From Chrysoperla carnea (Eukaryota; Arthropoda; Insecta; Neuroptera; Chrysopidae): a stretch of DNA of 64,000 nt. Location of the stretch: positions 15,906,640 to 15,970,639 of the forward strand of contig NC_058342.1 in NCBI RefSeq assembly GCF_905475395.1, read 5' to 3'. The notes beneath the pieces are model-generated. The model was given only the letters and a program-made list of their open reading frames with translations, ran no database searches and was not told the DNA's origin. The position numbers and the translations under genes are program-made. Below are positions 11,546 through 63,065 of this stretch, one piece after another. Within the stretch, counting starts at the first letter, position 1; each line of letters starts with the position of its first letter.

Positions 11546-11739
11546 ATGTTATAAAAACAGAAATATGCTATTTGGACTTATATAATCACAGATCAATAAA
11601 ATTTAAAACTGTTTATCTATATGTGCAATTTTGCCTATAGATGTTCAGTCTCATCCAGTGACAGTATAATCAACACTTTCTATACATGGTATTTCAACAA
11701 TTACCTCTAAATTGTTTGTTTTCATTTGTGTTAAGTTCA

Positions 11740-12777: not shown

Positions 12778-12921
12778 AGTAATTACAAATGACAGTCTAC
12801 ATGTGCAAGCAGCATAGGGCATATCTGGTCTATACTTGATATAGGTCTATGCAAGTAATGAACTGTCAGTTAGACACAAGGTACATTTATAAAAAAAATT
12901 GTAAACTAAAAGTGAAAAAAA

Positions 12922-29200: not shown

Positions 29201-32200
29201 ATTTCAGTAATTTGGAGGCAACTTACAAAGGAAAAACAGCATTTTTCGACGTTTTAAAATTTTCCACAGCTCTACGTATTCTACAGCCCCTACAAATTCA
29301 GCTATAGGATTGAAAATTTGAATGATTTGAGTTAGTATCAACGAAGAGTTGACTTCCCAACACAGATGCCCCAAATTTTATGTCGAAACAGTAAAGGGAG
29401 GAGGGGTCACATACATTTAACTAACAATATAGTCCTGTAAATGCATTCATTTAGGAAACGCATTTCCACTGACTACTCAAATATCCATGCATACTTTAAG
29501 CTTGGTGCATTCTTTGACTTTTTCTTTTGAGGCGAGTACTTCAAATACAAAATCTGAATCTTGACGAGGCAATCGAACTGACTGATACTGCGAAGTAGCT
29601 TTTGATTAAAAGGAGTGGAAACGCTGGAAAAGAGTTCAGAAAAATTTTCAAAACCATTAACGAAATCTACGATGAATACAACATGGAATTGCGGAAGCCA
29701 AGGCTAACGTCAAAACAGACTCAATGCTCGAATATACAGGGCTCATTTAGTTTTAGATTTCCGAATCACAATCTACATATCGTACATCAATTTATTTCTA
29801 TAACATTTACAGGGTCAATTTTTGAATCATCGCAATATTTTATCAAATTTTGCTTGTATCGTTCTCAACAAAATGAAGTTAGATGAAGTCTCATGCTCAA
29901 CTTTTTTAACTGGACTAATCAATTTTGCATTATGATTGCCGTGATATCTGAGTCGATGAAGTTCAACTTAAGCGAAAGCCCGTACAAGATGTCAAAAATT
30001 TACTCGTATATTTGCAATGAAGATGCGTTTCCAATTGTATATCAAATGCTTTACGTTTTGGCAGTTTGGCCGATGATAACAGCGACGATGAATGCTCCTT
30101 TTTAACTTTGCATCGTCTCATAACATTCCTTAGATCGCAAAGTCTGAAGATCAGCTAAACGGCTTGACCTCACTTAATATACATCGAAATGTAGAGGTCG
30201 ATGTGTACAGAGTTTTGTTAAGTTTTTTTTTTTTTGTATTTCGCAGAATTAAATTATTGAAAAATAGCGACTGAATGTCAAATTTTAGCCAAAAAAAAAA
30301 ATTATTGACTTGATGATCTAACATGATGAAAAAAAGTTTGACCTCCCCCTTGAATGAATCCTGCGCACGAGCCTGTGTCGAAATATGGTTTTTTTCGCGG
30401 CAACAGAATAATATTATAGAGGTTCCATTTTTGCATATTTTGAGTAACTTCAATAAAGAAAAGCAGAAAAAATAAGAATAAGTGAAATTTACAAAATTTA
30501 AAAAACTGCAGAAAAATTTTTCGGTGCGGAACCCTAAACTAGCACTTGAAACGTAGCTAAGAACATTCTCCATTAAATTACCTTTCAAACGAAACAAAAA
30601 AAATCAAAATCGATTCATCCGTTTAGGCTCTACGATGCCACAGACAGACAAACTTTTATATCTTTTTTTTAGTTCGAGAGTTAAAAATGATTCAAATGGG
30701 AGGCATAAATTCAGGATTCTGGTGCATGTAGTAAATAGCAAAAAGTAGGTAACTTTCTTTCGCTGGAATTCTATAAGTACAGAACTTTTCATTTTCGCTA
30801 CGTCAATCGTGTGGAATACCAATTAAGCCAGTAGTGCAGTATTGTTGAATTTAGTCCCCGAATTCGTGATCGGCGAAACAAAAAAATCCCTTGGGAGAAA
30901 GTCTTGCAGTAAAATGTTAAAATTTCAATTTAATCCCAAAAAGTGAGTTTTTTGTTCAAAAATGGCAAATCCCGTACTAAAGTGTGATTTGTGAAAAAAC
31001 CCCGGATTCATGACTAGCGAACAAACAAAAAAAACCTCGTAGAAATTTTCACAGTAAAATATTTTATATAAAAAGGTGAGTTTTTTGGCAAAAAATGATT
31101 CTTGATCAATGACCAAAAAAACTCTCTGGAACTAATTTCGGAAGAAAATATTTATTTTATAGACAATTTTTTGTTGGGGTGGTTTGGGGGTCCTGAAATT
31201 CCGCCAATTTTCAAATGAATGGGGAGGTGTTGATAAATGTTCTTTTTAATTTCTTAAAATAGCGACACTAAAAAGTATCGCCACCTAGGAAAGGATCAAT
31301 TGATTATGTTTACTTACCAAAAGATAATTCTGTAATTGACACATCATCCAAAATTATATTGAAATCCTTGGCTCTTTCTACCAAAGATCTTCGGACTAAC
31401 AATGAAACCTAAAAAAAAAAGAATAAAAACAAAGTTAGCTCGATGATTTTTTTTTTTTGAAAATTTTATTTGAAATTTACCTGGGCACGTTGAGTAATTA
31501 ATTGAGATGCGTTAAATTTAGCAACGACGGATTTTAGTACTTCATTACAAATTGAAGGCAATACTTTTTCATCGTAATCCAAGCCTAATTGTCGGTACAT
31601 CACAGGTAATGTAGAGGCATCTGGTCGAGACAATACACGTAAGGAAATATTAACCATTTGTAAATCTTTGGAACCGGTTGGTGAAGAAATTTTTCTTGGG
31701 CGTGATCTGGAAAATGATTGATAATTATTAAATTTCTTTATTAAAATCCTGATTACGGGAAAAATTTCTTGACTATTTTCTAAAATCTTGTAATACATAC
31801 TTAAAAAAATATGAAAAAATTACAAAAAAAAAAAAAATAGTTTGACCGATATGTGACACCGTAGCTCTTAAGGTAGTACGAGCACCAATGCAATTTTAGA
31901 TTTACGGCTGTAATTATTTGTACCTTATTTTCAACTTTGATGATGAATTTCGTTATAACTTCATGAATGTAGACGTAAACTAAGAAAAAATTTTCGATAT
32001 CTTCTTTGATTTTCGAAATATTTAAAGGTAAATAATTAAACAAAATTTTCAATTTTTTTCTATTATCTAACTTAACGTCCCCAAAACCGTAAATGAGTCC
32101 TAATTGACGTATCCAGCTATTGGCCCAAATTCATAAATACTACAACTACAATATTTAGGTATAAGAACATATTTAACCAGCTAAGTACGTAGATAGTCCA

Positions 32201-37044: not shown

Positions 37045-40000
37045 ATGTCTGGAAAATATCGTGTAGTTATGGTACGCCACGGTGAGAGCGAATGGAATGA
37101 AAAAAATTTATTTTGTGGATGGTATGATGCAAATTTAAGTAAAAAAGGTAAGTAGACTTGAAAATTTTTGTGTTTAGCTTACTTAAAACCTCGTTTCTAA
37201 CTTAATTATATCACAAATATCTTCTTACTATTCGTACGAAAATTACATGTTTTCTCAGAAAAATCTTTGCTATCTACTATCTTTAATTTCATGTTTTGGG
37301 TAAAATATCACGGACATGAGAGAGTGAACGAATTTCTGGAGTGAAAATTTGTAATTCCAGTAAAAGGGTAATAATAATTGTAATCAGTCTGAAAGTTGTA
37401 ATACTCTAAATTTTTTAACTTTAGAAATTGAAAAATTCATAGATTTTTTTAACTTGTCGTGCCATAAAAAATTTTCTTTTGAAGGAGAAAACCCCGGCTA
37501 TGATAATTTTTTCGTTGAGAAAAAAGTTGTTAAATATGACCTTAATAATTACTTAAATTTCCAGCCGTTCTTAAATGACTACTAAATATTACGGCTGGCC
37601 GTAGTCATATTATCGATAATATCGTCTAATTTTCCAAGGAAGTAACATAATTGTGTATTTTCAGGTGAAGAAGAAGCTGTTAGTGCTGGAAAAGCTTTGA
37701 AGGAAGCTGGATTTAAATTCGATGAAGCCCATACATCTGTTTTGAAACGTGCACAAAATACATTGGCAGCAATTTTAACTGAAATTGGTCAAAATGATAT
37801 TCCTATAAATAAAACATGGCGATTAAATGAACGGCATTATGGTGGACTCACTGGTTTAAACAAAGCCGAAACTGCTGCCAAATACGGTGAAGCACAAGTA
37901 CGTTATTTTATTTACGTTATTAATTTGGTTCACTTCACATAATGTTTAAAAAAGAAATTCTTCGGATAGGATAGGATTCCGAACTAGTTTGAATTTTCCT
38001 TTTTGTTTTTCTCCTGTACATAATGATCGAGTTCCTGTGTCGAGTGTCCTGAAACTATAAGAACAGACGAACAGAGTCATATAAAAAATCGCATATTATA
38101 TGCCCCAAATGAAGCTGACTCACTGACACACTGGCTGATCTATATTTTCGGCGTTTGGCGTGGGATTTCTTGAAATCTGCGGGAAAAATCGGAAAACTTC
38201 AATTTCTCCCCAAAATTACGTTTTTCTGTTATATAAATGCTAGAAAGACGAGATTTTCACCAATAGACTCGAAATAAAGCCTATTAACAGAATACTTCGT
38301 AAAATTTCATTACCTATATCACAATTCTCCGAAAAATGGGAAAAATCTCCCCAAAACTAATTTTTTTTTTCTATACATGTTAGAGAGATGCAGTTTTTTA
38401 CATTTGGTGGAAAATTTGCTCCAATTAATGAGGATATTCGAAAACTGTTCATCGCTACTCCCTCAAAATGGGAAAAGCACCTCCTAATCTACATTTTTAA
38501 CTTCTATTCATGCTAGAAAGGATTGATTTTTACATTTGGTGGGAAATTTCTTCAAACTAATGAGGTCATACGATAAATTAATTTTTTTCATGAGAAATTG
38601 GAATCTTTGATGATTCCATTTGTAGGACAATGACTTGTATGGAGGACAATGACACCTCCATATACGTTATTTGCACCAGCAAAATTCTGCCAGGGTGTTA
38701 AGTTCAGAATGTTTGTGTCCGAAAATTTAGATTCATAAATCCTGGGAGAAATCCCGGCGGAGATGCTGCGAGTTTTCTACGTGGCGTCTGTCCTCAACAG
38801 TATACTATAGCTACATCTACATAAAATAGCTCTTACCCGGAGACGTCTTGCCTTCAGATAACAGATTATTCTCAAGGAGGGTACAGAGTACCTCTTGGTC
38901 TAGGTACTAGGGACCCATTTGCGGTATACTTCTATGCTTTTATTATTTATTTCTAAGTGGAACAATATAAATAATATAAAAGCAGGATATATTTCAGTCA
39001 TGTAGAAGACAATCTTGTGGGAAAACTGCTTTTCGATGTTTCTAAGACCTTGCGTTGCCCTAAAACCTCCTGAGATAGATGGTTACATATTTTTAATTTT
39101 GGTGTGCCTTATGAGGTTGTCAACTTCTCAGTCGCTTTTCCACTTTTTTATACCGTACTACATATTTTTCGTGTTTAATATAGTAGTGTCAACTCCACAG
39201 GCCCTTTTTATGTAGATATTTCATGTGTTTAACGTTTTACCATAACGATGGAGCTTTGCTGCTCACGTATTTTGTTCTTCGTAAATATCCGAAAAACTGA
39301 CTTTTTTTTTATTAATTGAATTTATATTAGGTTTTTGGTAGTACATACTATATTATAATAAATAATTATAATAATAATAAATAATTTTATTATTAGTGTA
39401 TGACTACAAGTTTTTTTATTTGAACTCAAAATTTTTCGAACTTGCGTTCATTCTCGATTCGTTCATTTTTTTAGGCCAGCGGGATAAAAATTAATTTTTG
39501 TATACAATTTATTTATAGGTTCAAATTTGGCGTAGAAGTTTTGATGTACCACCACCTCCAATGGAACCAGATCACCAATATTATAAGGAAATAGTTGAAG
39601 ATCCACGATATGCATCAGAACCCAAAAAAGAGGAATTCCCAATGTTTGAAAGTTTAAAATTGACAATCCAACGTACACTACCTTATTGGGACAATGTGAT
39701 TGTGCCAAAAATTAAGGATGGTAAAACCATTTTGATTGCAGCTCATGGTAACAGTTTACGAGGCATCGTTAAACATTTAGACAGTAAGTTCATAAAAAAT
39801 TTAAAAAAAAATCAAATGACAGGAACTTTGAGTTATACTCAATGTTAAGTAAAATAAATCCACGTATCTTTCACATTTTTGGCCAATATCTAGGAAACCA
39901 TCAACATTGAGAAAAATAGTTTTAAACAAATATATAATTAACAATATCTTGAAACTAATTGTTTTTATAAAACTATTCAACCAAAAGTTGTTTCCTAAAA

Positions 40001-43000
40001 AAATGTAGAGTGAACAATTTCGATATCTTAAGTCGTTTTCACAACGATCAATTTTATTATATATTTTTCGTTAATTATCGAATCATTATCCTCGAATTAT
40101 GTGTAAAAAGTCCTGAATTTTGTTGCTCGGGGGTTTTTGAGGTCCCTGATTGCGAATATAACGATAATAAGAATATAGTTTAAAAAACTAAAAAACACGC
40201 TTGTTGCTTGTTCTAAGTATGTATGTATAGTATGGTTATCGCACAGTGTTTCGTTTAATGCTATCTAGCGGGACAAAAGTCATGACGCAATTTCAAAAAA
40301 ATGATAAGGCCATGTTGTAAACAACCCTTTGTAGGTACCAAATTCGAAAATATCATTGGGCTAAACCACCTACCCAGGTAGGTGTTTGTGTTCAAAGTAC
40401 AGTGATAACAAAGGTAGTTTTGTATTTGCAAATCAGTTGAATTTTTCGCACACTTACGATAGCATCTCTTTAAATTTGTGGTTTAGTGTTAAGTGATTTT
40501 CGTGATGGATTATTTTGTTGAAGGTATGTACTCTATTTTTATGTTTTTTATTTTATTCAATTACTCATATTTTTAGTGTACCATGGCTAAGAGTAATATG
40601 ATAGAAATAATTAATTTTTTTTGCTAAATTTAAACTTTAAAGGGTTGCAACTTTTTGTATCCACATGTATCCAGCTAGATTTTTCTGTATGTTATATTTA
40701 CAACATTTAAGAATAGATTCATGTAAATTTTAACGCCCGAAAATGCCCGCAAGTAAAAATATTGTCCTTTTTTCAGAACGAGTCATAACTATGACGAAAT
40801 CGGATTTTTTCGACGAATGGCTTAAACATGAAAAAAATGATAGAATTCATCACATTTTTGATGTTTTATGTGAAAAACATAGGCTAAATGAAATGTCTGA
40901 AGAATCCACACGAAAACTTAAAATGAAAATTTGAAGTTTTTCCGCGAAATTTAGCGAAAAGTGGGCATCATCAAAATGCAACAAGGAAATGTTTTTAATG
41001 AAACATAAAAATTGGTTGGATGGTTGCGATATGGAATTGACAGTATGTGTAAACCAGCCGTGCCCTTCAACGTCTTCTACGTCCTCAGGAGGTCAGAATG
41101 TAGGCCGACCAAAAAAATCATTTGATGACCTATCAATAAAAACAAAGAGACGAAGGGTCGAAGATTTGTTGGCTTAATTACAGCTGCCGAATTAGCCTCC
41201 AGAAAAGAAAGGCACCGAAGTATTGCTCAGAAAATAAAAAAAGTCAGCGAAAGCTCAAAAAAAAACACGAGCTGTGAGGAAAGTAGGCAGTTAACTGCAG
41301 ACGAAGCTTTGGCTTATTACGTAGACTCTAAATCGACTAGTGACGCGTACAAAAAAACTAGGAAGTGGGCAATGAAAGCGGGACATAAAGTGTTTCCATC
41401 ATTCTACAGTTTACGTAAGTCCAAAGCCTCTTGTTGTCTTTCTGACGAACACATTTCTATAACAGAGTCTCGAGCTGAAATTAAACTTCAGGCGATTTTG
41501 AATAAAACGGCTGAACGTTTAGTTGCAGCTCAGTCTGAAGTTATCAGAAGTGTGTTACCTCGTTCATCCTACACTTTGATCAGTAAATGGGGCTGTGATG
41601 GTAGTTCGAGGCACAGTATATATAAGCAGAGATTCGAGAACAGCAACGCTACAGACGAATTTTTGTTCGTGTTCTCATTTGTCCCACTGAGGCTACTTGA
41701 TGGTGAAATTATCATCTGGCAAAATCCGCGGCCTTCCTCTACCTCATATTGTCGTCCAATCAAGAAATAAAGATAGTAGATTCCGTGAGCACAACACCAG
41801 AAAGAGGTCACGTGTTGCTACGAATACAGATCTTTTGAGAATGCTACTGATTACTTCCGATCCTGTAATAAACACATTTAGGGAGCTATCGCGAAAGAAG
41901 TTCAGCTCTTGCCACCGGAGATTGTGCAGTTGATTGTCCCACCTTCAATGCCACCAAAATCGACGTCATTAGTAGGCGAAATTAGTGAAGAAGATTATTT
42001 GTTTTCAGACTCTACAGAATGGGAGAGTAATGACGATGAGTCTGATGACAATTATTAAGTTTACATTTTTTATTGATTAACTTTTTTTAATATATATATT
42101 TTTTATTTAGTATTATTATTTTTTTTAATATAGTATTTGTTACATATTTTTAAGTTTTTTTTATATTTTTAGCTTATTTCTTATTACCTAAGTTATTTAT
42201 TTTATTTTTACGATATTTTAGTTAATTTAATATATAAAAATTTGAAAATTATTGAAACCTAATCAAATATAGTTTTTGACAATTCATTTTTATTTTTTTA
42301 ATATTAAAATCTACCTGAAGTAGGCATAAATGATAAATTCTACCTAAAGTAGGTAGTAAATAAGGTACGTCGGTAGGTATATACCTCTAATTACAACGTC
42401 CTCACCTACATTTCACCACGGGAATGGTGTTGAAACGTGCGAAATTTAGATATCAATACCGATCTAGGCTTTATATACATTACAGTATCCAAATTGTTTC
42501 TTCTCGCTTAAAATAGCACAGTCTACCTGGAAAATACATAAAAAATGAAAATAAGCCAAAAAATAATTTTGTCCCGCTAGCTTCATATAAACGAAACACT
42601 GTGTATCGGTAGTATAATAAATGTATATAACTGATGATGTCCTATGCATGGGTATGATATTAGTTGCTGTGATAGAGTTGCATAAATTTTTATTACAAAA
42701 TTTTCGTTTTCGGCTTCGATTCACGTTAGTGAATGTTTTTTATCAAAATATGACGCATAAAGAGATTTCTCTATTTTCCGCGCTATTTTCATGCATAAAT
42801 CGGAGAATTTCACAAAACTGCTACTCTGACTTCTAAGAGTTAAACATTATCTATTTTCCAAAGTTTATATCTAATTTTTTTGTTTAATATGGCTGAGAAA
42901 TTATAATTTTCGTTTTTTTTCTAGAATTATCCGATGAACAAATCATGTTATTAAATTTACCAACTGGAATTCCGTTCGTTTATGAACTCGATGAAAATTT

Positions 43001-45329: not shown

Positions 45330-45625
45330 ATATATAGTCCCAAGTGTGTAACACTTAAAACTATTGATGCTACCAGCAAAATTTTGGTATAGGTCTTCCT
45401 AAAATCACCTAATTAGCAAGCTGAAATTTGTCTAGTGTAAGGAGGTAAGAAATGAGGTCGAGTTCGAAAATGAGCAACATCAATTGGGTCTTGGGTTCGT
45501 AGTACTCATTTTGTAAACCGTTAGAGATAGAACTAAAGTTTAAATGTAAAAAATGTTACTTATAAAAATGAAATAACTTTTGTTTGAAACATTTTTTCGC
45601 AAACATCACTGTTTACCCGTATTGT
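45330..45625 (+). repeat. R1 repeat copy
   Basis: It runs from TATAGTCCCAAGTGTGTAAC through AAATAACTTTTGTTTGAAAC, with the final part missing. Confidence 0.65.
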
Positions 45626-47052: not shown

Positions 47053-47139
47053 TTTTCTTTAAGTTATTTTTCGATTGGTTACCTCAAAAACGAGATATTT
47101 AGGTGTACAGATTAAAACAGCGAAACTTGCATTTGAAAT

Positions 47140-47570
47140 ATATCAAGGTATACTAAGTTTAGTCCCAAGTTTGTAACGTTTAAAAATATTTATGCTATGA
47201 ACAAAATTTTAAGATAGGTGATTATAAAATCACCTAAAGAGTCCATTTCCGGTTTCTGTGTGTCCGTCCGTGTTCATGATAACTCGAAAAGAAAATAGAT
47301 ATCAAGCTGAAATTTTTATAGCGTTCTTAGGAGGTAAAAAGTGGGGTCCACTTCGTAAATGAGCAAGATAGGTCAATTGAGTCTTGGATTTGTAGGACCC
47401 ATTTTGTAAACCATTAGAGTTAGATACTCTTATTACTTTGTGTGTAAGAGTGGCTACCTTTCTTTACTTACATGACGTAAAAAAACAAACGATTGCATAA
47501 TTAACACTGTCTATACATAGTATTTCAACAATTAACTCAATCAATTGTTGATTTTCACTTGTTTTTAATA
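47140..47570 (+). repeat. R1 repeat copy
   Basis: It opens with TTTAGTCCCAAGTTTGTAAC and ends TCAATTGTTGATTTTCACTT. The central AACAACTTTTG block is deleted. It lies just downstream of the next zinc-finger gene. Confidence 0.7.
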
Positions 47571-47693: not shown

Positions 47694-48926
47694 TTACTTA
47701 AATACGTTTTCGTCAGCGTGTCTCCGTTCATGTTGAACTAAATAATATTTCCTGCTAAATGTTTTTTTACAAATATCACACGAAGGTTTTTCTTGAATAT
47801 GAACCATTTTATGCCGAACCAAATAATCTTTAATACTAAAAGATTTTTCACAAATATCACATGAAAATGGTTTTTGTCCTGAATGAATGGATTGATGTCT
47901 AGCTAAAGTGCTTCGATCCGTAAATGTTTTGTCACAGTCCTCACATGGAAATGGTTTATCTCCAGTATGAATCATTTTATGTCTAAGAAAATTACTTCGA
48001 ACGATAAATTTTTTATCACATACCTCACATGAAAATGGTTTTTCCTTTTCATGAGTCTTTTTATGTTTCACTAAACTACCTCTTTGATTATACACTTTAT
48101 CACACACATCACATGCAAAAGGTTTTTCTATTGTATGAATCATTTTATGACGAACTAAATCACTTCGAGTCCGAAAGTATTTTTCACAAACATCACATGA
48201 AAATGTTTTCTGTCCCGTGTGAATCAGTTTATGTCTGGTTAAACTATCCGGTCTGTTAAATCCTCTTTCACAAACATCACAATGATAATCAAAGTCTCCA
48301 ACATGAACTCGTGGTGATTCTGAAATATTGTCGTCTAAGATTTCATCTTTAATAATTAACTCCGTATTTAATTCGTTTTCAAGTTTAATATTTTCGTAAT
48401 TAAGTAAATGTGCTCCATTTCCACGAATTCGTCCATTAACACTGTTTTCTGGAATTACATTCTTAAATTCCACATTTTCTATTGTAACACTAACTTCTGG
48501 AATTTCAATTTTAACTTTTACTTCTTCCATGGTAACACTGTCCTCTGAAACTTCATTTTTAATTTTCCCATGTTCCATTAAAATACCATCTTCTGAAACT
48601 ATATCTTTAAATTGTCCATGTTCCATTGTAAAATGTTTTAATATACTGTATTCTAGAATTTCATTTTTAATTTGGTTGTGTTCAGTTTCAATATTGTCTT
48701 CTAAAATTTCAGTTTTAATTTGGACATTTTCATCATCGCCTTCGCCTAATATCTTATCTGTGTTTATTTGTTGTTCATTCGAAAATGAATAATTATTTGC
48801 ATCATAATCATCTAATATTTCACTTTTAATTAATATTAATTCAGTATCTTTTGGCTTTTCAACTTCCATATTTTCTTTTTTGATAAAAATATAATTTTTT
48901 ACATCAAAACATGAATTACTTGTCAT
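47694..48926 (-). CDS. C2H2 zinc-finger protein, 7 fingers, SUMO-motif-rich tail
   Basis: An intronless frame of 410 codons from the ATG at 48926. Residues 1-210 are acidic with no known fold. They carry at least eight matches to the SUMO acceptor consensus (hydrophobic-K-x-E): IKKE, IKSE, IKTE, IKNE twice, VKIE, IKLE, IKDE. They also show a loose 20-residue internal repeat (EVSEDSVTMEE, EIPEVSVTIEN, VIPENSV). Seven C2H2 fingers follow to the C-terminus, with linkers such as TGQKTFSC, TGDKPFPC and SGQKPFSC. The penultimate linker is shortened (QEKPSCDIC). A nuclear DNA-binding regulator is likely. It is related in style to the genes at 7.7 and 12.9 kb. All zinc ligands are present. Confidence 0.88.
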   Translation of the reverse strand: MTSNSCFDVKNYIFIKKENMEVEKPKDTELILIKSEILDDYDANNYSFSNEQQINTDKILGEGDDENVQIKTEILEDNIETEHNQIKNEILEYSILKHFTMEHGQFKDIVSEDGILMEHGKIKNEVSEDSVTMEEVKVKIEIPEVSVTIENVEFKNVIPENSVNGRIRGNGAHLLNYENIKLENELNTELIIKDEILDDNISESPRVHVGDFDYHCDVCERGFNRPDSLTRHKLIHTGQKTFSCDVCEKYFRTRSDLVRHKMIHTIEKPFACDVCDKVYNQRGSLVKHKKTHEKEKPFSCEVCDKKFIVRSNFLRHKMIHTGDKPFPCEDCDKTFTDRSTLARHQSIHSGQKPFSCDICEKSFSIKDYLVRHKMVHIQEKPSCDICKKTFSRKYYLVQHERRHADENVFK

Positions 48927-48929
48927 TTT

Positions 48930-49515
48930 CGTTATTTTTTTTTGTTTTACTAAAATTTCATTCTATTTGAGACTGCTGCCAAACTCTTTTGACTTTTTTA
49001 TCTATAAGTCTGTGGTTGTTTATTCAATGACTTTTAATAGAACTCGGTGAGTAAGATCGTTCGCCATGTTGATGTTAATAATAGTAAAATAGGCAGGTAT
49101 GGACTATGGAGCATCGAGGTAATGTAAGATAGAAGCGTAATAGATAGGTAATATAAGTGAATTATTGACCGCTTAAAAAGAGTACACGTACATATAAAAA
49201 TCTGCCAAATTCAGTTTACTGCAAATGATTTTCATTGAAATCTGTAGCAATTAATTAGAATAACCTTTTTTGAATGTTTTTGTTCTTCCAAAATTTTGGC
49301 TATCAGAAGCCATACGATAAAATTATGATTAGCTATTTAGGAGCCACAATGGCAACAAAAATCGCCACAATGGCAAACCCGATTTAGAGGCGAAGACAAC
49401 TGTTTTTTTTTAGGCGAAGACAGCTGTTTGGATAGCCACATTACGGTTCTATATTATTACTTCTATGGTTATACTCCATATTTGGTGCTTGTGAAATAGC
49501 AAACGTAACAAAATG
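48930..49515. other. Upstream of zinc-finger gene, no gene seen
   Basis: AT-rich with a short repeat of GGCGAAGACARCTGTTT near 49390 and 49412. No coherent frame. Confidence 0.4.
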
Positions 49516-50072: not shown

Positions 50073-50560
50073 ATCATAAATCTATACAAAGTAGCAAAAT
50101 TTTATAAGTGGCGTAAAGAATTTATTGTTATCCTAAATTGTTCTCAAATAAGTAAATGTCCTTAAGATCCTTACAAAATGTACGAAAAACATCTATTTAT
50201 AACATGTACAATATGAATATCACATAAACGCAACGATGTTCAGTTCGATTTGCAATTATTTTACCAAAATCAAATCGTCAAATTTTGTTGCCCCAAAATC
50301 TCATAATCTATTCAATAATACATTAATAATTTTATATAAATGTATGGGTACAACCCTGGCAACAATCATGATTGATGATTTTTCTATGATCGCACATATC
50401 ATAAATGTATACAAAGTAGCATAACCTCAAAATTAGTGTGAAAAAATTTATTTTTAGCCCAAAATTGATCTCAAATAAGTAAATGTCCTTAAGATCCTTA
50501 CAAAATGTACGAAAAACATCTATTTATAACACGTACAATATCACACAAACGCAACGATAT
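50073..50560 (+). repeat. Tandem duplication of PDPR first-exon start
   Basis: About 190 bp from CATAAATNTATACAAAGTAGC through the leader codons occurs twice, 327 bp apart (50073-50260 and 50399-50560). The upstream unit retains an ATG at 50156 and the codons for MSLRSLQNVRKTSIYN, but stops at TAA (50225-50227) after 23 codons. The downstream unit begins the real coding sequence. If transcribed together, the upstream unit would be an upstream ORF. Confidence 0.8.
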
Positions 50561-53500
50561 TCAGTTCGGTCTGAAATTATTCTACCAACTCAGGCACGAA
50601 TTGTAATTGCCGGTGGTGGAGTTGTTGCAAATTCTGTTGCCTATCATCTTGTGAAAAATGGTTGGAGCGATGTACTTATTTTGGATCAAGGTAGAATTGG
50701 TAGTGGCACATCTCATTTTGGATCTGGAACTTTGGGTTTGTTCAAACCGATTGCGGATAGAAATTTGATTTTATACAGTATTAAGCTTTATAATAAGCTA
50801 CAAAAAATGGGATATGATATCGGTATTAAACAGTGTGGGAGCTTAAATTTAGCACAAACTAAGGATAGGGTGATTGCGTTAAGACGACGCATGGCGTATA
50901 ATATACCTACTGGTTTACATTGTGAGCTTGTTTCTCGAAAGGAGTTGCAACGATTACATCCTCTGCTACGGGTTGATGACATTGAAGCAGCTGTTTGGGT
51001 ACCTGAAGATTCTGTTGCAGGTAAAATTTTTAGTACACTCATTTTTAAATATTTTTGTTAACAATCGCCACACAAAGCCGCTTAATTATACCACTGCACA
51101 AAGGCTATTAACATGGTGAGAGTTATGGATTAGATGTATGAATTTTCAGAAATTAAGAAAAAAGTACTGATAACTGTTACTGTTACTAATGGATCCACGA
51201 GCGTGGATCCACCGTTGTGGGCACGATGGGCATGTCCACAACCCTAATAGACTTGTGACCTCACAATTTTCTTAAAAATACTGTAAACTCTCCCGGTCAG
51301 GTAGAACGCAGAGAGGTCCTTTTCTACTCTTCACAGAGTAAAATCTTGGTTGCATGCCCCAATGGCAGACAAAAGATTGTCCAGGCTAGCTCTCCTAAAT
51401 ATATACAAAGATGTGAACCTAAACCTTGAAGCTGTACAAATTTTATCAAAATCGATTCAATATTTTGTAATCGTTTGATGACATAGTTTAGAGTCTAAAT
51501 TTGACACTTTGATGTGCAAACAAACACACATTTACTGTTATAATTTTCGTGAGCGAACTAACTAACATTTTACAGGTTTGTTAATTTATAATTAGTGTTA
51601 GAGCCCCACGTTAGTCTTAGAACGATGGACTAGTTAGACTTAGGTTGTGGGTTCGAATCCAGGCAGCGGCAGTGTGAACAATTTATAATTAATGGGAGTG
51701 CAGAATTGATCACATTGTCGTCACTAGGATAAGAACGAAGTAACCGACTCCACCCACATCAAAAATGTAATTGTAAATATGTTTGTAATTGAAAAAATAA
51801 AAGATTAAACGATGTGGGTGGCCTCTGTGATAAGGCGTATGTCATAAATACGGAGGTTAAACCCCCATTATTATTATAATGTATAATAAGTGTTAGAGCC
51901 TCACGACTTTGCCATGTGGAATTATACACAATACAGAATCTTTGCCAGGGCGTTATATAATTTGTAAACATCTCTTTTGTAGCAATGCAGGAATGCACTA
52001 TATCGATAATGATGAAGTTCATATTCCGACTCACATTTGGCCGATTTGTATACCCTGTATATATGAAATATATATATAAAGGTACACTAAGTTTAGTTCC
52101 AAGTTTGTAACGCTTAAAAATATTGATGCTACGAACAAAATTTATTGTTTAGGAGTTCATAAAATTACCAAATTAATCCATTTCAGGACGTAAAATGTGA
52201 AGTTAAGTTCGTAAATGAGCAGCATAGGTCAATTGGATTGTGGGTCCGTAGGATCCATCTTGTAAATCGTTAGAGATAGAACAATAGTTTAAGTGTAAAA
52301 AATATTCCTTATAAAAAAATTAATAACTTTTGTTTGAAACATTTTTTCGTAAATATCATTAAAAATTAGGATAAAACTTTGGTGCCCATAATCTCCAAAA
52401 ACTGTAAAAGATAGAGAAGTGAAAATTTGCAAGTGATTTGTGATTTTATGAACACCTATACCAAAATTTTGTTGGTAGGATCAATATTTTTAAGTGTTAC
52501 AAACTTGAGACTTAACTTAGTATACTTTGATATATACACAGGGTATAAAAATAGAATCACTAACATGCAGCACTTACTATACAGGTTATTTCAACAATTA
52601 ACTCAGTCAATTAATTATTTGTATAAATATTATCAAAATAATAAATGAGAACTGTAGGATGTCTCGAAATAAATTTCGATTTTTGCCTTAATTTCCTAGA
52701 TCAATTTTTTGTATTACATAAATACGAATTTCGACTACCAATTAGTCATCATCAGTATGAATTAGCTAATCGTAATTACTATTATTGTGTATGTTACTAG
52801 TTGCTAATTTGGTGAGGGGCTGGTGCTGTTCGCCACTTTTACCTACACATTTCTTCGAACAAGTTTGACATCCAATGCAATAGATTCCCGATTGCTGTTC
52901 GTTGTTCACCATATCTTTTGGATTTTCAAGTAATTGTTTCGATTTCGTTCAACTGATGGGAGCTATTTTCAGGTTGTTCTCCAAGTTCTTTTGTTATTTT
53001 ATTGATGCATTGTTGAAAATATGTTAATTTGTGCACCATTTCTTCTTATCGATGCTGTTCTGTTCTTGTTTCAATGTTGTTGAATTGTTTCTTAATATTT
53101 TGAATTTTATTTTTCGGGTCATATTCTTTATTATTTTTGGATCAAAACCGTTGTATATTGCGACTTGCTGGATGTGCTTCAACTCTTTGAAATAATTTTT
53201 GTTGGATAATGGTACTTTTATTAATCTGTTCACTAGGAAATTGAAAATGCCTAGTTTGTGTTGTGGCGAGCTGTTTTAATCTGCTGTAATGTACCTTTCA
53301 GTGTGTGTTAGTTTCCTGTACATGTCGAATTCTAGTTTCCTAGAATTGGTGCTTTTAGAAATTCTTATGTCTAGGAACGGAATTGAACCGTCTTTTTACC
53401 CCGGCTATACAATGACGAGGGTTATGTGTTTGACCGATATGTATGTATGGTCATCTGTTCGGACCTAGCTTCTAAACTACTTATCATAATTTGACAAATG

Positions 53501-56500
53501 AGGTACCTTTAGAAGCGTCTTGATCGCCCGCTGGTTATAGGCTGTGCTTAAATTGAATATGGCGCCCTCTAGAGGATATAAAGTTATGGTCGAAAACCAA
53601 ATTTCGATTTAATTATAGCGTGTTTGGTTTCAAATTAATGGGCGTAATTAGCACTTTTCAAAAATATATATATTGCTTTACCTAGTTACGAAACTATAAC
53701 CGCAAAATAGTTAAAAATATATTTATTTTCGTCTGTTCCCTCCTAGCTTCTAAATTACTCGTCATAATTTGACAAATGAGGTATCGTTAAAATCGCCCGC
53801 TGGTTATAGGCTATGTTCCGTCACATTAAATTGAATACGGCGCCCTCTAAAGAACATAAAGCTATGATAAAACTTTTCAAATATATATTTGTTGTTATAC
53901 TTTCTCACGAATTTATAACACCAAAATGGTTTAAATAAAAGAAAGTTCGAAAACTAAAACCACGACAATTACAGAATCGCGCTCTTAATAGTATGAAAAC
54001 AAGAAAATAGTTTCATCTGAAATTGTTATGATAAGTAACATCGTCATTACAGTCGAAGACCTCTAAGTTTAAACAGTTTTCCACAGGACCGAAAAGAGGT
54101 CCTCCGACTGTTTTATAACAATTTCAGATGAAAATATTTTCTTGTTTTCATACTTTTAAGAGCGCGATTCTGTAACGGTCGGGGTTTTATTTTTCGAACT
54201 TTATTTTTTCAACTTCTGTTGTGAAATTAAGTCCCTTTACGTTAAACGAAGTAATTTAGAATTGGAAACATACAAGTTCCACAATTGACTGAGTTAGTTG
54301 TTGAAATACCATATATAGACAGTGTTGATTACTCTGTCACATTACACATACATACATGTCACACAATATAACTGATATTCCCATATAATACATACTATAC
54401 AATTTGCGCTCTCATGGGTAAACAGTGATGTTTACGAAAAAATGTTTCAAACAAAAGTTGTTTATTTTTTTATAAGAAACATTTTTCACATTTAAATTTT
54501 TGATGATAGACGGGCAAACGGCAGACAGACAGACAGACAACCGGAAATAGACTAATTAGGTGATTTTATGAACACCTATATCAAAATTTTGTTGGTAGGA
54601 TTAATATTTTTAAGCGTTACAAACTTGGGACTAAACTTAGTATACCTTGGTATATTTCATATACATGGTATAAAAACCTACAAATTTACGTAGAACTACT
54701 CGTTTCCGAATTTAAACAAAATTCACTAATAACCAATTGCCAATTTGCTTGTAGTAAAAAGTAAAAGATCTTTTCTCGTTTCAGATCCTAAAAAAATATG
54801 CAACACATTGGCTGAACTTGCTGAAAAAGGTGGAGCAGTTTTTCAAGAACATTGTGCTGTGGAACGAGTCCTCACTGATAATGGAACTGTGAAAGCTGTT
54901 CAAACAGAACATGGCACTGTCCATTGTGAATATTTCATAAATTGTGCTGGTATGTGGGCACGAGAATTAGGCCTAAAATGTCAAATACCCGTGCGTATAC
55001 CAGCATATCCAGCCGAACATTTTTACGCTATTACAACCGGTTTGGCAGTTAATGAAAATTTACCATGCATCCGAGACTATGATGGTTTCACGTATGCGCG
55101 AGCTTTAGATAAAGGATTAATGGTTGGATGGTTTGAAAAGGAAGCTCGTCCTGCATTCTGGGATAAGAAAGTGCCTAGGGATTGGAAAAAACATGTTCAA
55201 TCGAATTTTCAACATTTTCGTAAGTAAAACTTAATTTTATAATTTTTGCTTAAAACGATCTTTCATTAATTACTTAAAGGTCCCGAGGGGAAGGAGTGGG
55301 TAAAAAAAACTCTACATGCCCTTATCTTGGGGAGAGCGCAGGGTTAAAACGCATTCTTACGTAATATTTTGTAATTCAAAATTTAATATTAGAAATATAA
55401 TTCCATTTCAAATTCCGAATGGTTTTCTTCATTCTATAACGTACACTTTCATTTATATTTTATTTTAAACAAGTGAAAACAAACAATTGACTGAGTTAAT
55501 TGTTGAAATGCCATGTATAGACAGTTTTGATGACGCAATCGTTTGTTTTTTGACGTCACGTAAATAAAGAAAGATTTCCACTCTTAAATAGCCACCACAC
55601 ACATAACTGATATTCCCATATTAATACATACTGTGGATAAACAGTGATGTTTACAAGAAAATGTTTCTAACAAAAATTGTTTATTTTTTTATAAGGAACA
55701 TTTTTTACATTTAAACATTTAAACAAACCCCAATTGACCTATGTTGCTCATTTACCAACTCGACCTCACTTTTTACGTCTAAAGCACATTATAAAAATTT
55801 CAGCTTGATATCTCTTTTCGTTTTTGAGTTATCGTGATGACAGATGGACAGACGACAGACGACAGACAGACAGACATACGGAAATGGACTAATTAGGTGA
55901 TTCTATGAACACCCAAACCAAAATTTGTTTATTTTTTATTAAAATTTTAAAATGTTAAATGTGATCATTTTTATCTAATTTAATTTTATAAATAATAAAC
56001 TGTGAATTCTAGTGTTACTGATTCTTTTCTAACAATATTTTATTATTCTAACAAACGAAAGAGAATCTTACATATGAAGGGGGGGGGGATTCCAAATTCA
56101 TGAAAATCATCCTTATGTAATTAATGTATGGCCCCAAATATGTTTTGACATTTTGTAATAGATTAACTTACAAAGCGAGAGCTAGTTTCAAATTACAAGT
56201 TTGGAATTTCCAATATATCTTTAGCACCTAAACCTAAAGGTTATTCTTGAGAATTCGTCATCTGGAGGTGAAACGGCTACAAGCAAAAAGTTCTATTTTA
56301 AGCATAAGAAACAAAAATATTCTGTCGAGGACAGAGGCACCTTAGAAAGCCCACAATTTCTTTGGTGGGATTCCTCTAAGAACAAATGGGTCTAACGGGC
56401 AATGGACGCAAACATTCTAGAAATACCTGTAGGCTTCTGCAGGTCCAAGGGTGCTTCAAACTAACCCTAAAAGTGGGACGCACTAGAATTCTCAACTATA

Positions 56501-59500
56501 TTCTAACCCCTATAAAAATGGCCAGCTCAACTTAAAAATATTGAATTTGGATTACGTGAAAATTAGTAGATTTTAAGGTGCAATTTAGGTGCGTTAACGT
56601 TAAATTAGGTGCATAAACGATTTTCCAACAATTACAAAATTTAAACAATAGTACTTAAAAAGCTCGTAATTTTCACCTAATCCAAATTCAATATTTTTAA
56701 GTCAATCCGTTGTTCACAGAGTTTACACCATCACAAAGTGAACGCAAGAGCTAAAAACTCGTAGACTGGTGTGTTCCCCCCAGTGGCTGTATCCACTCTG
56801 TGATCCACTGGTTGGCCATGTTTTTGGTGAGGTTGAGCCAGCACGGGTATACGGGTTTTTTTGGCCCTTGCGTTCAAAAAACGAAAAAAAAAAAATTAAT
56901 AGCCCAACTTAAAAAGAATGAATTTAGGTTAAGTGAAAATTAGGAGCTTTTTAGGTGCTATAGTTTAAATTTTTTTAGGGTTTCGGAAGCACTTAATCAG
57001 CACTTAAATGTTACGCCTAGGAAAAAAGAAAATATCTATTTTTATACGACAAACTGCTAGGTTATTAAATCCTGGTAAAGCTTTCTTTTTTATCAATTCT
57101 TGGAAAATTGTTTGTGCACCTAATTTATAGTTTACGCACCTAAGTGGCACATAAAAAGCTCCAAATTTTCACCTGATTCAAATTCGATATTTTTAAGCTG
57201 GGCTAATCATTTTTATGGATATTTTCAACCGGATACGGACAAATATATTTGCTCCCGGAATTCATAAACTACAAACTGGCATAACTCAACCAATTTTCAA
57301 CCAAATTAGATCATCGGTATGTTCCATGTTCCTAGACTGCTTCATTCCACCGTACTAAGGATAAGCTCTTGTATTCTCAAAAATTTGTGTACCAAAAAAC
57401 GACTTTGAATAAAAAAATTAAGATTTAAAACCTTTACTAACTGATTTTTTTTTACTTTATTATATTATAAATAGATTTTTCTTAAACTCGATACATATGT
57501 TCAGTTTGGTCATAATTCCAGACGATTTTTTCCGTAGGCCTTTTTTCAAGGGTACTTCCCTCTAGGCCAAAACAGGATTTTTGGGGTTTTCTCAAAAACG
57601 GCTTTAACGATTTCGATTAAACTTGGCACAAGACTAGACCTTAAGGTGTTCCTAAGTTTGATATAACTCCCGTCTGGGACCCCTCCCCCAGAGCCGTGGA
57701 GCTGGAGGGGATGAAATCGTCAAAAGTGGTGAAATAAATCCTACCCAAATTTGATAAAATATCATTTAAAATGTCTTTTTAAGTAACTTTTGTAACTTGA
57801 TAATCTTTGCTTAACCTCACCCTTACCAAACTACATCCTTCTAAATATTATATTAAATCCAATAAATACCTAAGCTGTTCCTCATTACTTGTTTTTTAAT
57901 AATTCTCACAATTGGCTGCTTTCAATAAAAATATTATAAGAATAATATATCAATTTTATAATATAATAAAGTCTTGTCCGGTGTTTCGGACCGTTTATTA
58001 ATTTTAGTGCCATTATGGGAAAATGCTGTACATCGTTTACCAATATTGAAAAGTGTTTCGAGACCACAATTAACAAATTCACCAGATAATTTTACACCAG
58101 ATGGGAGATGGATTTTAGGTGAAACTGCTGAAGTTAATAATTATTTTGTTGCTGTTGGAATGAATGGCAATTCATTACAAGGTGCTGGCGGTATTGGGAA
58201 AGCGGTAGCCGAGTGGATTATTGAGGGAAAACCTACCCAAGAGTTATTACCATTTAGTGTACAAAGATTTTTAGATTTGCATAATAATCGTCAGTATTTA
58301 CAACAACGAACTAAAGAAGTTGTCGGAAGGTATTTAAATTCTTTTGAACGAAATGAGTTTTTTTATAGAACTCAATCAAACAATTAAAGGAACAAACTGT
58401 TTACATAAAATTTCAAACAGCTGTATCTCTGTGAAAAATCATCATATTTAGACCCAAAATAGCCGATTCGAAAATTTATTTTTTATAGTTTTAGAATCCA
58501 TGGCTTAAAAACCACCACTTGCCGCTTTGAATGGAGGGTTGAAAAAGTGAGAAATGTTATCACTAAATTTTATTTGAAGTTTAGAATCCAATATGCCAGG
58601 GCTTAAGGATGTAGGAGCACCAAGCCAACTTTTAATTGAAAAGCTTGATTTTTTTATATGAAGTTGGACTAAGTATAAATCAATTCTGAAAATTTTAGGG
58701 GGAAACGATCTAAAGTAGACATATTTAACATTGGTTTTATGGTAAAACGAAAGATGGATGATATCTTTAATAAATTGATGAAAACAAAAAAAAACGTTGT
58801 GTCCGACTAATTAAGGATGTATGAGCACGGTAGTGAGGACACAAATTTAAAAAATAATATTTTTCAGTTTTGATGGTGAATTATGTTATAACTTGACAAT
58901 ATAAGACGAAAGGTAATAATAAAATTATTCGATATCTGGAGTAATTTTCAAAATATCGAAAATTAAAAATTTTGTTTAATTACACAGGTCTGCGACTAAA
59001 AAACTGCATAGGATTTTTTTACATTATCTTATAGATTTCGAACTCCCAAAAACAGGAAAACTATTCAAAACATTCTATCACATAGGTTTTTATAGATATT
59101 AGTAACTAGTCTTTAAATAGCAATATATAGTATTTTATAGTAATATTATGTAAAACTAGTCTTAAAGTATTATTATATAGTATTTTATAGTAATATTATA
59201 TTAAACTAGTTTTAAAGTATTATTATTGCACAATAAAAATAAATTAGCATCGCTTCCAATGAGTTATTCTGTGTATATGGAAGAAAACTAACTATAACAA
59301 TTTGGCCATTTCCCTGGAAAGAATCTAATATCAGGACCATCAATGGATGGATATTGTTAAGAACACTCGAAAGCTTGTTTATTTCTTTTAATAAATGAGC
59401 TATAAAAAATTTCGTTATGAGCTTTTTGGACTAAGATATTTCCTTTCCAAGCAAAATTTATCCTTCTGGATTTAAAATCCTGTATCTTCTGGACTAATCA

Positions 59501-62409
59501 TCGCACTGAAATTTTTATCAAATCGTATGAAAACTGTCTTCTTTTAAGGTAGCATGAGAACCAGGGCAATTTTAGATTTAGGTTTGAAATTATTTGTGCC
59601 TTTTTTTCACTTCATGAATGTAAACGAAAAATAAGAATACAATTTTTCGATGTCTGTTTTGGTTTTGAAATATCGGAAGCTAAATAACACAGGTCTGCAA
59701 AAAAAAAAATTTTTTGTCAGCTGCATGAGAAATTTTTACCAAATTATATGTTTTAGAATGCGCTAATTTCAGAATTGATGGCCATTTTTTTCTATCACGT
59801 AAGGTAAAAGCACTCGTTTATTAAAAATTATATAGTAGCCTGCAAGCATAGTGACATCCCATATTGCCTGGTACCGTCTCTCGATATCGCGGGCATCCTG
59901 ATGAAACCGCTCCCCCTGTTCTTCACTGTAAGCTCCCAGGTTTCCAGAAAAAGATTCTATGTGGGAGTGTAAAAAATGGACTTTCAGGCTTATCTTGCAG
60001 CCTTGAGCTTTGTATGCTGCTAGTTAAACAATGTTTTTGTAGTCAGGATCCTTAGTATTTCCCAAAAACTTTCGCACTACATCCTTGAACGATACCCAAG
60101 CTTCTTTTTCCTTCTCAATCATACTTTCCAGAAAGAGGGTGCCAGTTAAAAGCCTTCTTATGTCGGGGACGGTGAAAACTCCCTCTTTCAACTTTGCTTC
60201 TGACAGCTTCGGAAATTTTGTACATAGATAAATCAATCCCAATTTGATGTGGAGAGGTGGAAACAAAACTTTTTCTGGCGGCACCAAAGTAGTATTGATC
60301 ACATTTTTCTCCCCAGGTTTATAAGTTTCTCGGGGTGGCCAATCACTTTTAGTCCATTCCTGTTTTCTGGCTCTACTATCCCATAAGCATAAGAAGCATA
60401 GGTATTTAGTATAGCCTGCCTGCTGACCCAAAAGCATCGTGAGTATTTTGAAGTCGCCATAAACTATCCCTTAATGGTCCTGATATTTGATTCTTTCCAG
60501 GATAATGGCCAAATTGTTAAAGTTAGTTTTCTTCCATATGCACAGAATATCTCATTGGAAGCGAAACTAATTTATTTTCATTGTGCAATAATAATATTTT
60601 AAGACTATTTTAATATAATATTACTATAAAATACTATATAATACTACTTAAAGACTAGTTTATGTTGTTACTAATATCTATAAAAACCTATGTGATAGAA
60701 TGTTTTGAATAGTTTTCCTGTTTTTGGGAGGTCAAAATCTATAAGAAAATCCCATGCAGTTTTTTAGTCGCAGACAAAATTTTTAATTTTCGATATTTTG
60801 TGTTATATTGTCAAATTATAACATAATTCACCATCAAAATTAAACATTTTTTAGAATTTGTGTCCTCACTACCGTGCTCATACACCCTTAATTAGTTGAG
60901 CACAATGGATTTTTTTGTTTTCAATAATTTATTAAGGTTTTAACTTTAATTTAATTAGTTTTTTTTTAATTTCCACCAACTAGATTTGGAGAAATCTATG
61001 AAAATATATCATCCATCTACCGTTTCCCATAAGCTCAATGTTAAATATGCCTACTTTTGAAGTCATTCATTTATTTAAATAATCGGGCAACCCTCTTCCC
61101 CCTAAAATTTTCAGAATTGATTTATACTTAGTCTAACTTCATATAAAAAAATAATCAAGCTTTTTATTTAAAAGTGCCTTGGTGCTCGTTCATCCTTAAA
61201 AACTTAGCTCCTTTGTATTCTCGCGCCTGCAGGCACGTGTCTACTTTGCCTTACGGGTAATCCGCCTCTGACTATAATTAGGTTTCCGTTCCTAAATGAC
61301 AAGTAATCCTTCTAATTTTACCAATCACGCCTGAATATCAAAATCAATTTTTTTAAAACTAGAATTCTTATAACTTAGCTATCTGATTTATTCTTTTTAG
61401 ACATTACGCCATTTTGTATCCACATCAGTGTGAATATAAATATGCAAGGAAACTTCGTTGTTCACCGTTGTACATTGCACTAGAAAGTCGCGGAGCTGTA
61501 TTTGGTATTAAGATGGCATATGAACGAGCATTATATTTCGATACTTCTTATAAAAGTATGTAATTCATTTTATGATTTTAATCGATACTATTTTTTTGTG
61601 GAAATAAATCTGTTCTGGAACTCAAAAAAAATTTGTGAAGTAAAACTACCTTTGAAAAAGTCTGAATATATCAAATAAATTGTTATTAATCAATCATTTA
61701 ATGACAGAAAATGGTAATAAATTGAGACTCTTTAGGAAGAAATATTCTGAGTTCTCCTAGAAGACTTTTTCAGAATTAGGCAGAGATTTTATGGAAATTT
61801 AGTTAGCAAAATAGAGAAAAGTGCATATGGCCATTCTTTTGACGAAATTTTTCAACGGAAATGTATTTCATAGGAATGCTAGAATGATGTCAGATACCGA
61901 ACGATCAAGCAGGCTTTTTTAGGCCTGAAATTGATGCTGTGGGCGTGGACGACGTTTATTTTATGAAGACGGAGACGCAGGCCATACAACTAACTGGTGG
62001 AAAATGGTTCTATTGCGTAATTTCTCTCTAAATGGAAATTTTTATTGGCCGCCGAGATCGTGTGAATTAAAAAAAATTTCATCAAAAGAATGGTCATATG
62101 CAAGAAGAGTCGCGGCTGATATTTGACCGATATTGTGTTCCAGTACTAATCTCAGAGCTTGTACTATGGATTAAAATAAAATTATCAGCTCTTTTCACAA
62201 AAATGACACCTTTTATTGAAAGACACTATACTTCAAACTTTGAATAATATGTTACTATGATATTTTTAGGAGGTGATAAATTACCAACTATGCCACCAGG
62301 TAGTTTTTTTAAGCCCAAGTTTTTCGATTTTATGAAACAAGAATATTTAGCATGCAGAGAAGGTGTTGGCGTAATTGATATGTCTTCATTTTCAAAAATA
62401 GAAATTAAG
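50483..62409 (+). CDS. Pdpr: Pyruvate dehydrogenase phosphatase regulatory subunit, 5' part
   Basis: A mitochondrial-matrix flavoprotein relative of dimethylglycine and sarcosine dehydrogenases that tunes the pyruvate dehydrogenase phosphatase. Exons 50483-51020, 54785-55219, 58008-58329, 61401-61555 and 62270-62409 join in frame to 530 codons. The family is near 880 residues, so the C-terminal GcvT-like part should lie beyond 64000. The start MSLRSLQNVRKTS is Arg-rich and acid-free, as in mitochondrial presequences. An FAD-binding motif IVIAGGGVVANSVAYHL follows near residue 40. Further matches are INCAGMWARELG, PAEHFYAITTG, NYFVAVGMNGNSLQGAGGIG, LRCSPLYIALESRGAVFG and EGVGVIDMSSFSKIEIK; the last favours PDPR over DMGDH. 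Introns are GT-AG and repeat-laden. The third GxG position (GGGVVA) differs from the usual G. Confidence 0.9.
51021..51590. other. PDPR intron 1, proximal part
   Basis: No coding frame. A short palindrome TGGATCCACGAGCGTGGATCCA lies near 51190-51212. Confidence 0.45.
51611..51888 (+). mobile_element. tRNA-Leu-derived SINE, copy 2, with target duplication
   Basis: Flanked by a 17-bp direct repeat AGTGTTAGAGCCYCACG (51594-51610, 51889-51905; one mismatch), the mark of LINE-driven insertion. The 5' head lacks the A box, and the B box GTGGGTTCGAATCCAGGCAG is clear. The body and the tail GGAGGTTAAACCCCCATT match the other copies. Confidence 0.88.
52040..52640 (+). repeat. R1 repeat, rearranged
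   Basis: Forward R1 sequence from TTTAGTTCCAAGTTTGTAAC to a break near 52400, then a reverse-sense fragment (AACACCTATACCAAAATTTTG), then a forward R1 end. This suggests internal rearrangement of one or two copies. Confidence 0.6.
52655..53400 (-). pseudogene. Penelope-like element remnant
   Basis: On the minus strand, 53400 to about 53000 reads DGSIPFLDIRISKSTNSRKL, EFDMYRKLTHTERYITAD, a stop, then SPQHKLGIFNFLVNRLIKVP and FKELKHIQQVAIYNGFDPK. The FLDI...YRKxTHT...HK...RL pattern is the thumb-side region of Penelope-type reverse transcriptases. The frame ends at 53024. The 3' non-coding part (to 52655) contains the hammerhead-like core and matches 16515-16672. The catalytic RT fingers and palm are absent, and no GIY-YIG motif was recognised. 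Confidence 0.75.
52715..52760 (-). ncRNA. Candidate hammerhead ribozyme (Penelope-associated), copy B
   Basis: Minus strand: stem I CATA (52759-52756), CTGATGA (52755-52749), a bulged T, stem II GACTA/TAGTC with loop ATTGG, GAAA (52732-52729), a short stem III region, U at 52721, then TATG (52720-52717), which pairs fully with CATA. Relative to copy A, the third stem I pair changes from T-A to A-T, preserving pairing. Confidence 0.55.
53400..53930. repeat. Direct repeat with GGCGCCCTCTA motif
   Basis: TAGCTTCTAAAYTACT, CATAATTTGACAAATGAGGT, ATCGCCCGCTGGTTATAGGC and TGAATAYGGCGCCCTCTARA recur in the same order about 290 bp apart (about 53466-53580 and 53747-53865). Confidence 0.7.
53942..54208. 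mobile_element. Fold-back MITE of about 265 bp
   Basis: The arms of about 90 bp share AAAGTTCGAAAAMTAAAACC, TTACAGAATCGCGCTCTTAA, GTATGAAAACAAGAAAATA and TTTCATCTGAAATTGTTAT in opposite sense. The interior contains GAGGTCYTC phrases. Confidence 0.8.
54275..54690 (-). repeat. R1 repeat copy, reverse
   Basis: From ACAATTGACTGAGTTAGTTG to TTTCATATACATGGTATAAA. It lies 95 bp upstream of PDPR exon 2. Confidence 0.75.
55472..55925 (-). repeat. R1 repeat copy, reverse
   Basis: From ACAAGTGAAAACAAACAATT to AACACCCAAACCAAAATTTG. It carries the variant block with TTGACGTCACGTAAATAAAG also seen near 7600 and 62960. Confidence 0.75.
56524..56708. repeat. Fold-back repeat, ACTTAAAAATATTGAATTTG
   Basis: ACTTAAAAATATTGAATTTGG with GTGAAAATTA is mirrored at 56665-56700. 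A related, more diverged fold-back lies at about 56895-57215. Both are in PDPR intron 2. Confidence 0.65.
57220..58007. other. PDPR intron 2, distal part
   Basis: No gene apart from the acceptor TTTATTAATTTTAG at 57994-58007. The open frame that starts at 57974 is only the exon plus intron sequence. Confidence 0.5.
58988..59346 (+). repeat. Left inner arm of nested palindrome
   Basis: It pairs with 60470-60775, sharing CCAAAAACAGGAAAACTATT, CATTCTATCACATAGGTTTT, AGTATTTTATAGTAATATTA and CTGGAAAGAATC. A TAGTATTTTATAGTAATATTA stretch is duplicated in tandem only in this left arm. Confidence 0.8.
59547..59690 (+). mobile_element. MITE b half, inverted within palindrome
   Basis: TTAAGGTAGCATGAGAACCA to GGAAGCTAAATAA is the other half of a b-type MITE, in the sense opposite to the half at 58813-58985. 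Both halves abut the phrase ACACAGGTCTGC, suggesting an inversion between these points. Confidence 0.5.
59750..60437 (-). pseudogene. Decayed gene of a mobile-associated unknown family
   Basis: The longest frame (137 codons, 60437 to 60024) reads LLGQQAGYTKYLCFLCLWDS, VPPEKVLFPPLHIKLGLIYL, FLESMIEKEKEAWVSFKDVV and FLGNTKDPDYKNIV. After a frameshift the minus strand continues with LGAYSEEQGERFHQDARDIE, RRYQAIWDVTMLAGYY to about 59825. I recall this FLCLWDSR...LGLIK...GERFHQD...RYQ pattern from repeated uncharacterised proteins of aphids and other invertebrates. The CX2C and GERFHQD features hint at a nuclease-like fold, but the function is unknown. The N-terminus is missing. Confidence 0.6.
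60470..60775 (-). repeat. Right inner arm of nested palindrome
   Basis: Reverse complement of 58988-59346 with scattered differences and a few short indels; it ends GTCGCAGAC at 60767-60775. Confidence 0.8.
61556..62269. other. PDPR intron 4, no repeat recognised
   Basis: No gene seen between the donor after 61555 and the acceptor TATTTTTAG at 62261-62269. Fragments GGCCATTCTTTTGACGAAAT (61829) and its near complement (62075-62095) suggest an old fold-back. Confidence 0.45.
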
Positions 62410-62554: not shown

Positions 62555-63055
62555 TTTATACCATGTGTATATGAAATATTTCAAGGTATACTAAGTTTAG
62601 TCCCGAGTTTGTAACGCCTAGGTGTTCATCACCTAATTAGTTCATTTCCGGTTGTCTGTCTGTCTGTCGTCTGTTCGTCTGTCATCACGATAACTCAAAA
62701 ACGAAAAAAAATATCAAGTTGAAATTTTTACAGCGTGCTCAGGATGTAAAGTGTGGTAGAGAACGTAAATGAGCAACATAAGTCAATTGGGTCTTGTCAA
62801 ATGTAAAAAATGTTCCTTATAAAAAAATAAACAACTTTTGTTTGAAACATTGTTTTGTTAACATAACTGTTTACTCACGAGGGCGCAAATTAGATGCAAA
62901 TTTTATAGTATGTATTATATGGGAATATCAGCTATCTAAAAGTGGATATCTTTCTTTACTTACATGTCATAAAAAAACAAACGATTGCGTCATCAACACT
63001 ATCTATACTTGGTATTTCAATAATTAACTCAGTCAATTGTTTGTTTTCACTTGTT
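62555..63055 (+). repeat. R1 repeat copy
   Basis: A nearly complete forward copy from TTTTTATACCATGTGTATAT to TCAATTGTTTGTTTTCACTT. It includes GTCTGTCTGTCTGTCGTCTG and the AACAACTTTTGTTTGAAACA block. Confidence 0.8.
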
Positions 63056-63065
63056 TTGTTTTCAA

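Follow-up and report, generated by a model that had tools for sequence, protein, structure and literature searches.

A segment of 2362 bp (40242-42603) in the 64-kb window, by which we mean the whole stretch of DNA analysed, is very probably a decayed, non-autonomous copy of a cut-and-paste DNA transposon of the Transib superfamily. It has the three marks of this superfamily, namely homology to a Transib transposase, inverted ends that start with CAC and resemble the signals of V(D)J recombination (RSSs), and a 5-bp duplication of the target site. Judged from the sequence, its coding part is without most of the catalytic domain. The features on which this description is based are collected in Table 1.

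Table 1. Features of the element and of the intron in which it lies (window coordinates)
Feature	Positions	Strand	Basis
Host intron, phosphoglycerate mutase gene, element in sense orientation	39784-42924	+	1yfk matches and splice sites
Left target site duplication, TATCG	40237-40241	.	read from sequence
Left inverted end: heptamer CACAGTG (40242-40248), 24-bp spacer, ACAAAA (40273-40278)	40242-40278	+	motif search and end comparison
Predicted first coding exon (ATG..., donor GTATGT at 40524)	40505-40523	+	splice consensus only
Predicted second exon, N-terminal region, closing at in-frame TGA 40932-40934	40777-40934	+	transposase membership inferred from position
Open frame beyond the TGA, holds GRP-type motif	40935-41177	+	nonamer-binding-domain-like by eye
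Main transposase piece, 213 aa	41129-41770	+	residues 58-212 match HzTransib chain 11-163
C-terminal transposase piece, different frame	41691-41933	+	residues 22-64 match HzTransib chain 418-461
Putative internal-deletion junction (CRPI ... SRNKD)	41750-41774	+	alignment to HzTransib
Right inverted end: CACAGTG, 24-bp spacer, ACAAAA	42567-42603	-	motif search and end comparison
Right target site duplication, TATCG	42604-42608	.	read from sequence

Inverted ends and target site duplication

The two inverted ends are 37 bp long and identical at 31 of the 37 positions. An earlier note on this DNA had described the termini as CACAGTG, 24 bp and ACAAAA, flanked by a duplicated TATCG, and this was borne out exactly at both of them. 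When the 64 kb were searched for CACAGTG-N22..26-ACAAAA two sites were found, both being the ends of the element (0.03 were expected), and none of 100 shuffled windows contained at least two. The end-to-end identity finishes with the A-rich block, since the next 100 positions match at 23. All six mismatches fall within positions 17-23 of the inverted ends, a span so short that random placement of six would produce it with a probability of about 1e-4. In this single element, such clustering suggests two constrained blocks flanking a freer middle.

Inverted 37-mers are common in this repeat-rich window. With at least 31/37 identical positions and a distance of 300-6000 bp there were 2837 overlapping placements (0 in the four simulated windows, at the same threshold of identity), and eight of the 2837, the pair of the element being counted among them, had equal 5-bp flanks. 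The element is therefore identified by its RSS-like motif in combination with the transposase. By our own estimate a 5-bp duplication would match by chance roughly 1 time in a few hundred. From inspection of their ends, we take the other seven equal-flank pairs to be probable copies of dispersed repeats in inverted orientation. No further copy of the element was found elsewhere within the 64-kb window.

The register of the nonamer was also analysed, trying spacers from 10 to 27 bp against the RSS nonamer ACAAAAACC. The best one has a spacer of 24 bp, with 7/9 matches at the left end and 6/9 at the right, while a spacer of exactly 23 bp gave 4/9 and the 12-bp register 3/9 at each end. Because the match peaks at 24 bp and not at 23, the label "23-type" is true only within one base. 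With this tolerance the symmetric ends proposed before are supported, the spacers being equal at both termini. The heptamer is at both ends the exact RSS consensus CACAGTG, as the consensus is given in the part of PMC8289069 cited here. The combination of an exact heptamer with a nonamer of 7/9 and 6/9 at 24 bp is mildly notable.

Just inside both ends (40331-40418 and 42311-42528) there are clusters of ACCTAC and CTACCT motifs, several of which pair as small palindromes, for example CCACCTACCCAGGTAGGTG and CTACCTAAAGTAGG. The counts were 6 ACCTAC in the element versus 12 in the remaining window, 7 versus 23 for CTACCT and 3 versus 0 for CACCTAC. These clusters are possible subterminal repeats, the motifs having been picked post hoc.

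Remnants of the transposase

The assignment to Transib made in the earlier note finds support in the protein comparison. Specifically, two pieces located between the RSS-like ends match the HzTransib transposase (6pqn), the 213-aa piece with an E value of 2e-24 and 39% identity over the aligned part and the C-terminal piece with an E value of 1.1e-9. Both stand in the correct order, in different frames, and residues 164-417 of the HzTransib chain (254 residues) have no counterpart in the element between them. The catalytic residues of HzTransib, D126, D225 and E436 (PMC6941560, in the part cited), correspond to positions 109, 208 and 419 of the 6pqn chain by a single offset of 17. The first Asp is kept in the motif WGCDG (41588-41602), the second is missing, inside the gap, and the Glu position aligns with a Gln beside the junction.

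Upstream, a predicted intron of 253 bp (40524-40776) would follow a first exon of 19 nt, both drawn from splice consensus only, and the next predicted exon closes at an in-frame stop. More frame breaks are inferred near 41175 and 41890 from adjoining open frames, in a single copy and in regions free of homologues. A Pfam scan of four frame pieces of the element gave nothing above the cut-off. The earlier note had presented the element as a clean example and made no mention of the internal deletion, the change of frame or the in-frame stop in the coding part; that description has to be abandoned. According to the part of PMC4411706 cited here, most inactive, fossilised transposons typically carry stops and frameshifts, and an autonomous Transib typically has a single copy or at most a few.

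Upstream of the main piece there is a GRP-type motif that, by eye, can be likened to the GGRPR of the nonamer-binding domain of RAG1 (PMC6941560, as excerpted), and the available part of PMC9435367 describes an equivalent domain with a conserved GRP in both Transib subgroups. A sequence search of the PDB with the piece that holds the motif gave no relative, RAG1 chains being absent from it up to E 10. One could imagine a Transib lineage that reads its ends in a bipartite, RAG1-like manner, the GRP-type N-terminal domain touching ACAAAA 24 bp away from an exact CACAGTG. The confinement of the six mismatches to the spacer would fit such constraint on two separate blocks, and we regard this reading as rather unlikely. 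If it were true, the ends of the element would be nearer to the vertebrate signal than those of HzTransib, and yet symmetric.

We searched for relatives of the transposase in several collections. Among the viral_contigs, 4 stretches matched the pattern in the protein search and 54 in the alignment search, and none was confirmed in either. Among the genome_contigs, the protein search gave 104 matching stretches, with none confirmed, and the alignment search 17, one of which was reported (in Alkalibacterium, with an E value of 1e-4 among candidates). This locus (L003) is a bacterial frame of 383 aa with the string LISKWGFD, presumably a mannitol-phosphate dehydrogenase, and was rejected as matching the search pattern by chance. 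A tblastn search in phages and plasmids gave no match. Loci with the pattern of the inverted ends in the viral_contigs (2 + 2) were taken as chance, the tblastn matches with the two transposase pieces being no better than E 1.0.

The host intron and the rest of the window

A gene for phosphoglycerate mutase holds the element in one of its introns. The coding piece before the element matches residues 112-199 of Phosphoglycerate mutase 1 (1yfk) and the piece after it residues 199-253, so that both join at residue 199. The intron has a donor GTAAGT at 39784 and an acceptor CTAG with the AG ending at 42924, and the joined reading frame is continuous. Its length is 3141 bp, which becomes 774 bp when the element and one copy of the duplication are subtracted. 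We propose that the element is tolerated because it would be spliced out along with the intron.

Several other features were observed in the window. Large arrays of C2H2 zinc fingers are found in long frames at 7722-10391 (-), 12916-15756 (+) and 47694-48962 (-), identified by Pfam in the last case and by eye from the translation in the other two. Three frames at 50483-58387 (+) match FAD-dependent oxidoreductases (each of them DAO, and the last also FAO_M); they are probably exons of one gene, perhaps, judging by eye, a relative of sarcosine or dimethylglycine dehydrogenase. A frame at 31466-31819 (-) matches Band_7 (SPFH) with an E value of 5.4e-7 and looks prohibitin-like by eye. Dispersed repeats occur in both orientations (4011-7705, 11083-11559, 45414-45620, 47128-47424, 54281-54677, 55460-55930 and 62628-63056) and are approximately 78-94% alike among the matches listed (60 of 346). 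A frame of 148 aa at 60024-60470 (-), with no Pfam match at E 0.01, may be a piece of some other mobile element. Scans of the window with Rfam (at gathering scores) and for tRNAs gave 0 matches.

Alternative readings and comparison with known Transib elements

The intact ends and duplication are what a potentially autonomous Transib, the picture given in the earlier note, would have. An autonomous copy would also need an intact DDE triad in an open frame, whereas here the pieces are in different frames with chain residues 164-417 missing between them, the second Asp is absent, the Glu position holds a Gln and a stop interrupts the reading frame, apart from the probable further breaks. For the copy as assembled this refutes autonomy, and an assembly error would need to account for every defect at once; we consider an autonomous element highly unlikely. 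It is also very improbable that, instead of a Transib, the element is a RAG-like (RAGL) transposon with genes of both the RAG1-like and the RAG2-like kind. The CAC start and the 5-bp duplication are shared with RAGL elements according to the part of PMC7204232 cited here. However, the aligned part is 39% identical to HzTransib, whereas in that work the RAG1/RAG1L proteins analysed share less than 22% with Transib, and no RAG1 chain appears among the three PDB matches of the 213-aa piece up to E 10. Kelch and PHD domains are absent from the four frame pieces scanned, although the internal deletion could have removed a RAG2-like gene. Finally, since seven more pairs of inverted 37-mers in the window also have equal 5-bp flanks, the ends could be a chance inverted repeat, unrelated to the transposase pieces. 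Against this, the RSS-like motif is unique in the 64 kb to the pair of the element and brackets Transib transposase pieces, which makes such a coincidence extremely improbable.

Under the preferred reading, a decayed Transib copy, a transposase of the same family, coming from the element itself or from another copy, would have bound both ends. It would have cut by nick and hairpin at the CAC, as reported for HzTransib, with insertion at TATCG following. The internal deletion could have arisen before, at or after insertion. This copy would now make no working transposase and would at most be mobilisable in trans, and its ends might still serve a transposase of its family as substrates.

Earlier work on Transib has already described symmetric RSS-like ends, a start with CAC, target duplications of 5 bp and a nonamer-binding region of the GRP type (PMC8289069, PMC8355894, PMC7204232 and PMC9435367, in the parts cited here). 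Actually, end symmetry is not unusual in this group. Most Transib families are said to have symmetric inverted ends (PMC8289069), Subgroup II has symmetric as well as asymmetric ones (PMC9435367), and both symmetric and 12/23-asymmetric Transibs are described in PMC8355894, the asymmetric ones with heptamers and nonamers of which some are identical to canonical RSSs. Transib ends with both heptamer and nonamer identical to the RSS consensus are also reported in PMC6941560, so the RSS-identical heptamer found here is not new. The symmetric families listed in the cited part of PMC8355894 (after Kapitonov and Jurka, 2005) have, like the element, equal spacers, heptamers and nonamer-like blocks; their spacers are of 20-22 bp, whereas that of the element is of 24 bp in the register of the earlier note.

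Compared with the V(D)J signals themselves (12-RSS and 23-RSS), the element has the consensus heptamer (PMC8289069, as excerpted) and, roughly 23 bp further in, an A-rich block. It differs in having 24 bp at each end instead of one 12-bp and one 23-bp spacer, in reaching its nonamer matches only at 24 bp and in the absence of any antigen-receptor context around it. The closest comparison is HzTransib of Helicoverpa zea (6pqn and related entries), to whose transposase that of the element is homologous over chain residues 11-163 and 418-461. The two also share inverted ends with a 5-bp duplication (PMC1852546, in the part cited) and ends that resemble the RSS heptamer (PMC8289069). HzTransib has 3518 bp and is described as full-length in that part of PMC1852546, whereas the element is deleted. 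According to the passage of PMC8289069 used here, the ends of HzTransib have little or no similarity to the nonamer, in contrast with the ACAAAA found 24 bp inside each heptamer of the element. The element is one more copy of a family known to be related to RAG1, and its two ends are rather RSS-like. Should the host contain intact copies that share these ends, they would offer a useful natural substrate to find out which portion of the RSS (heptamer, spacer and nonamer) predates vertebrates.
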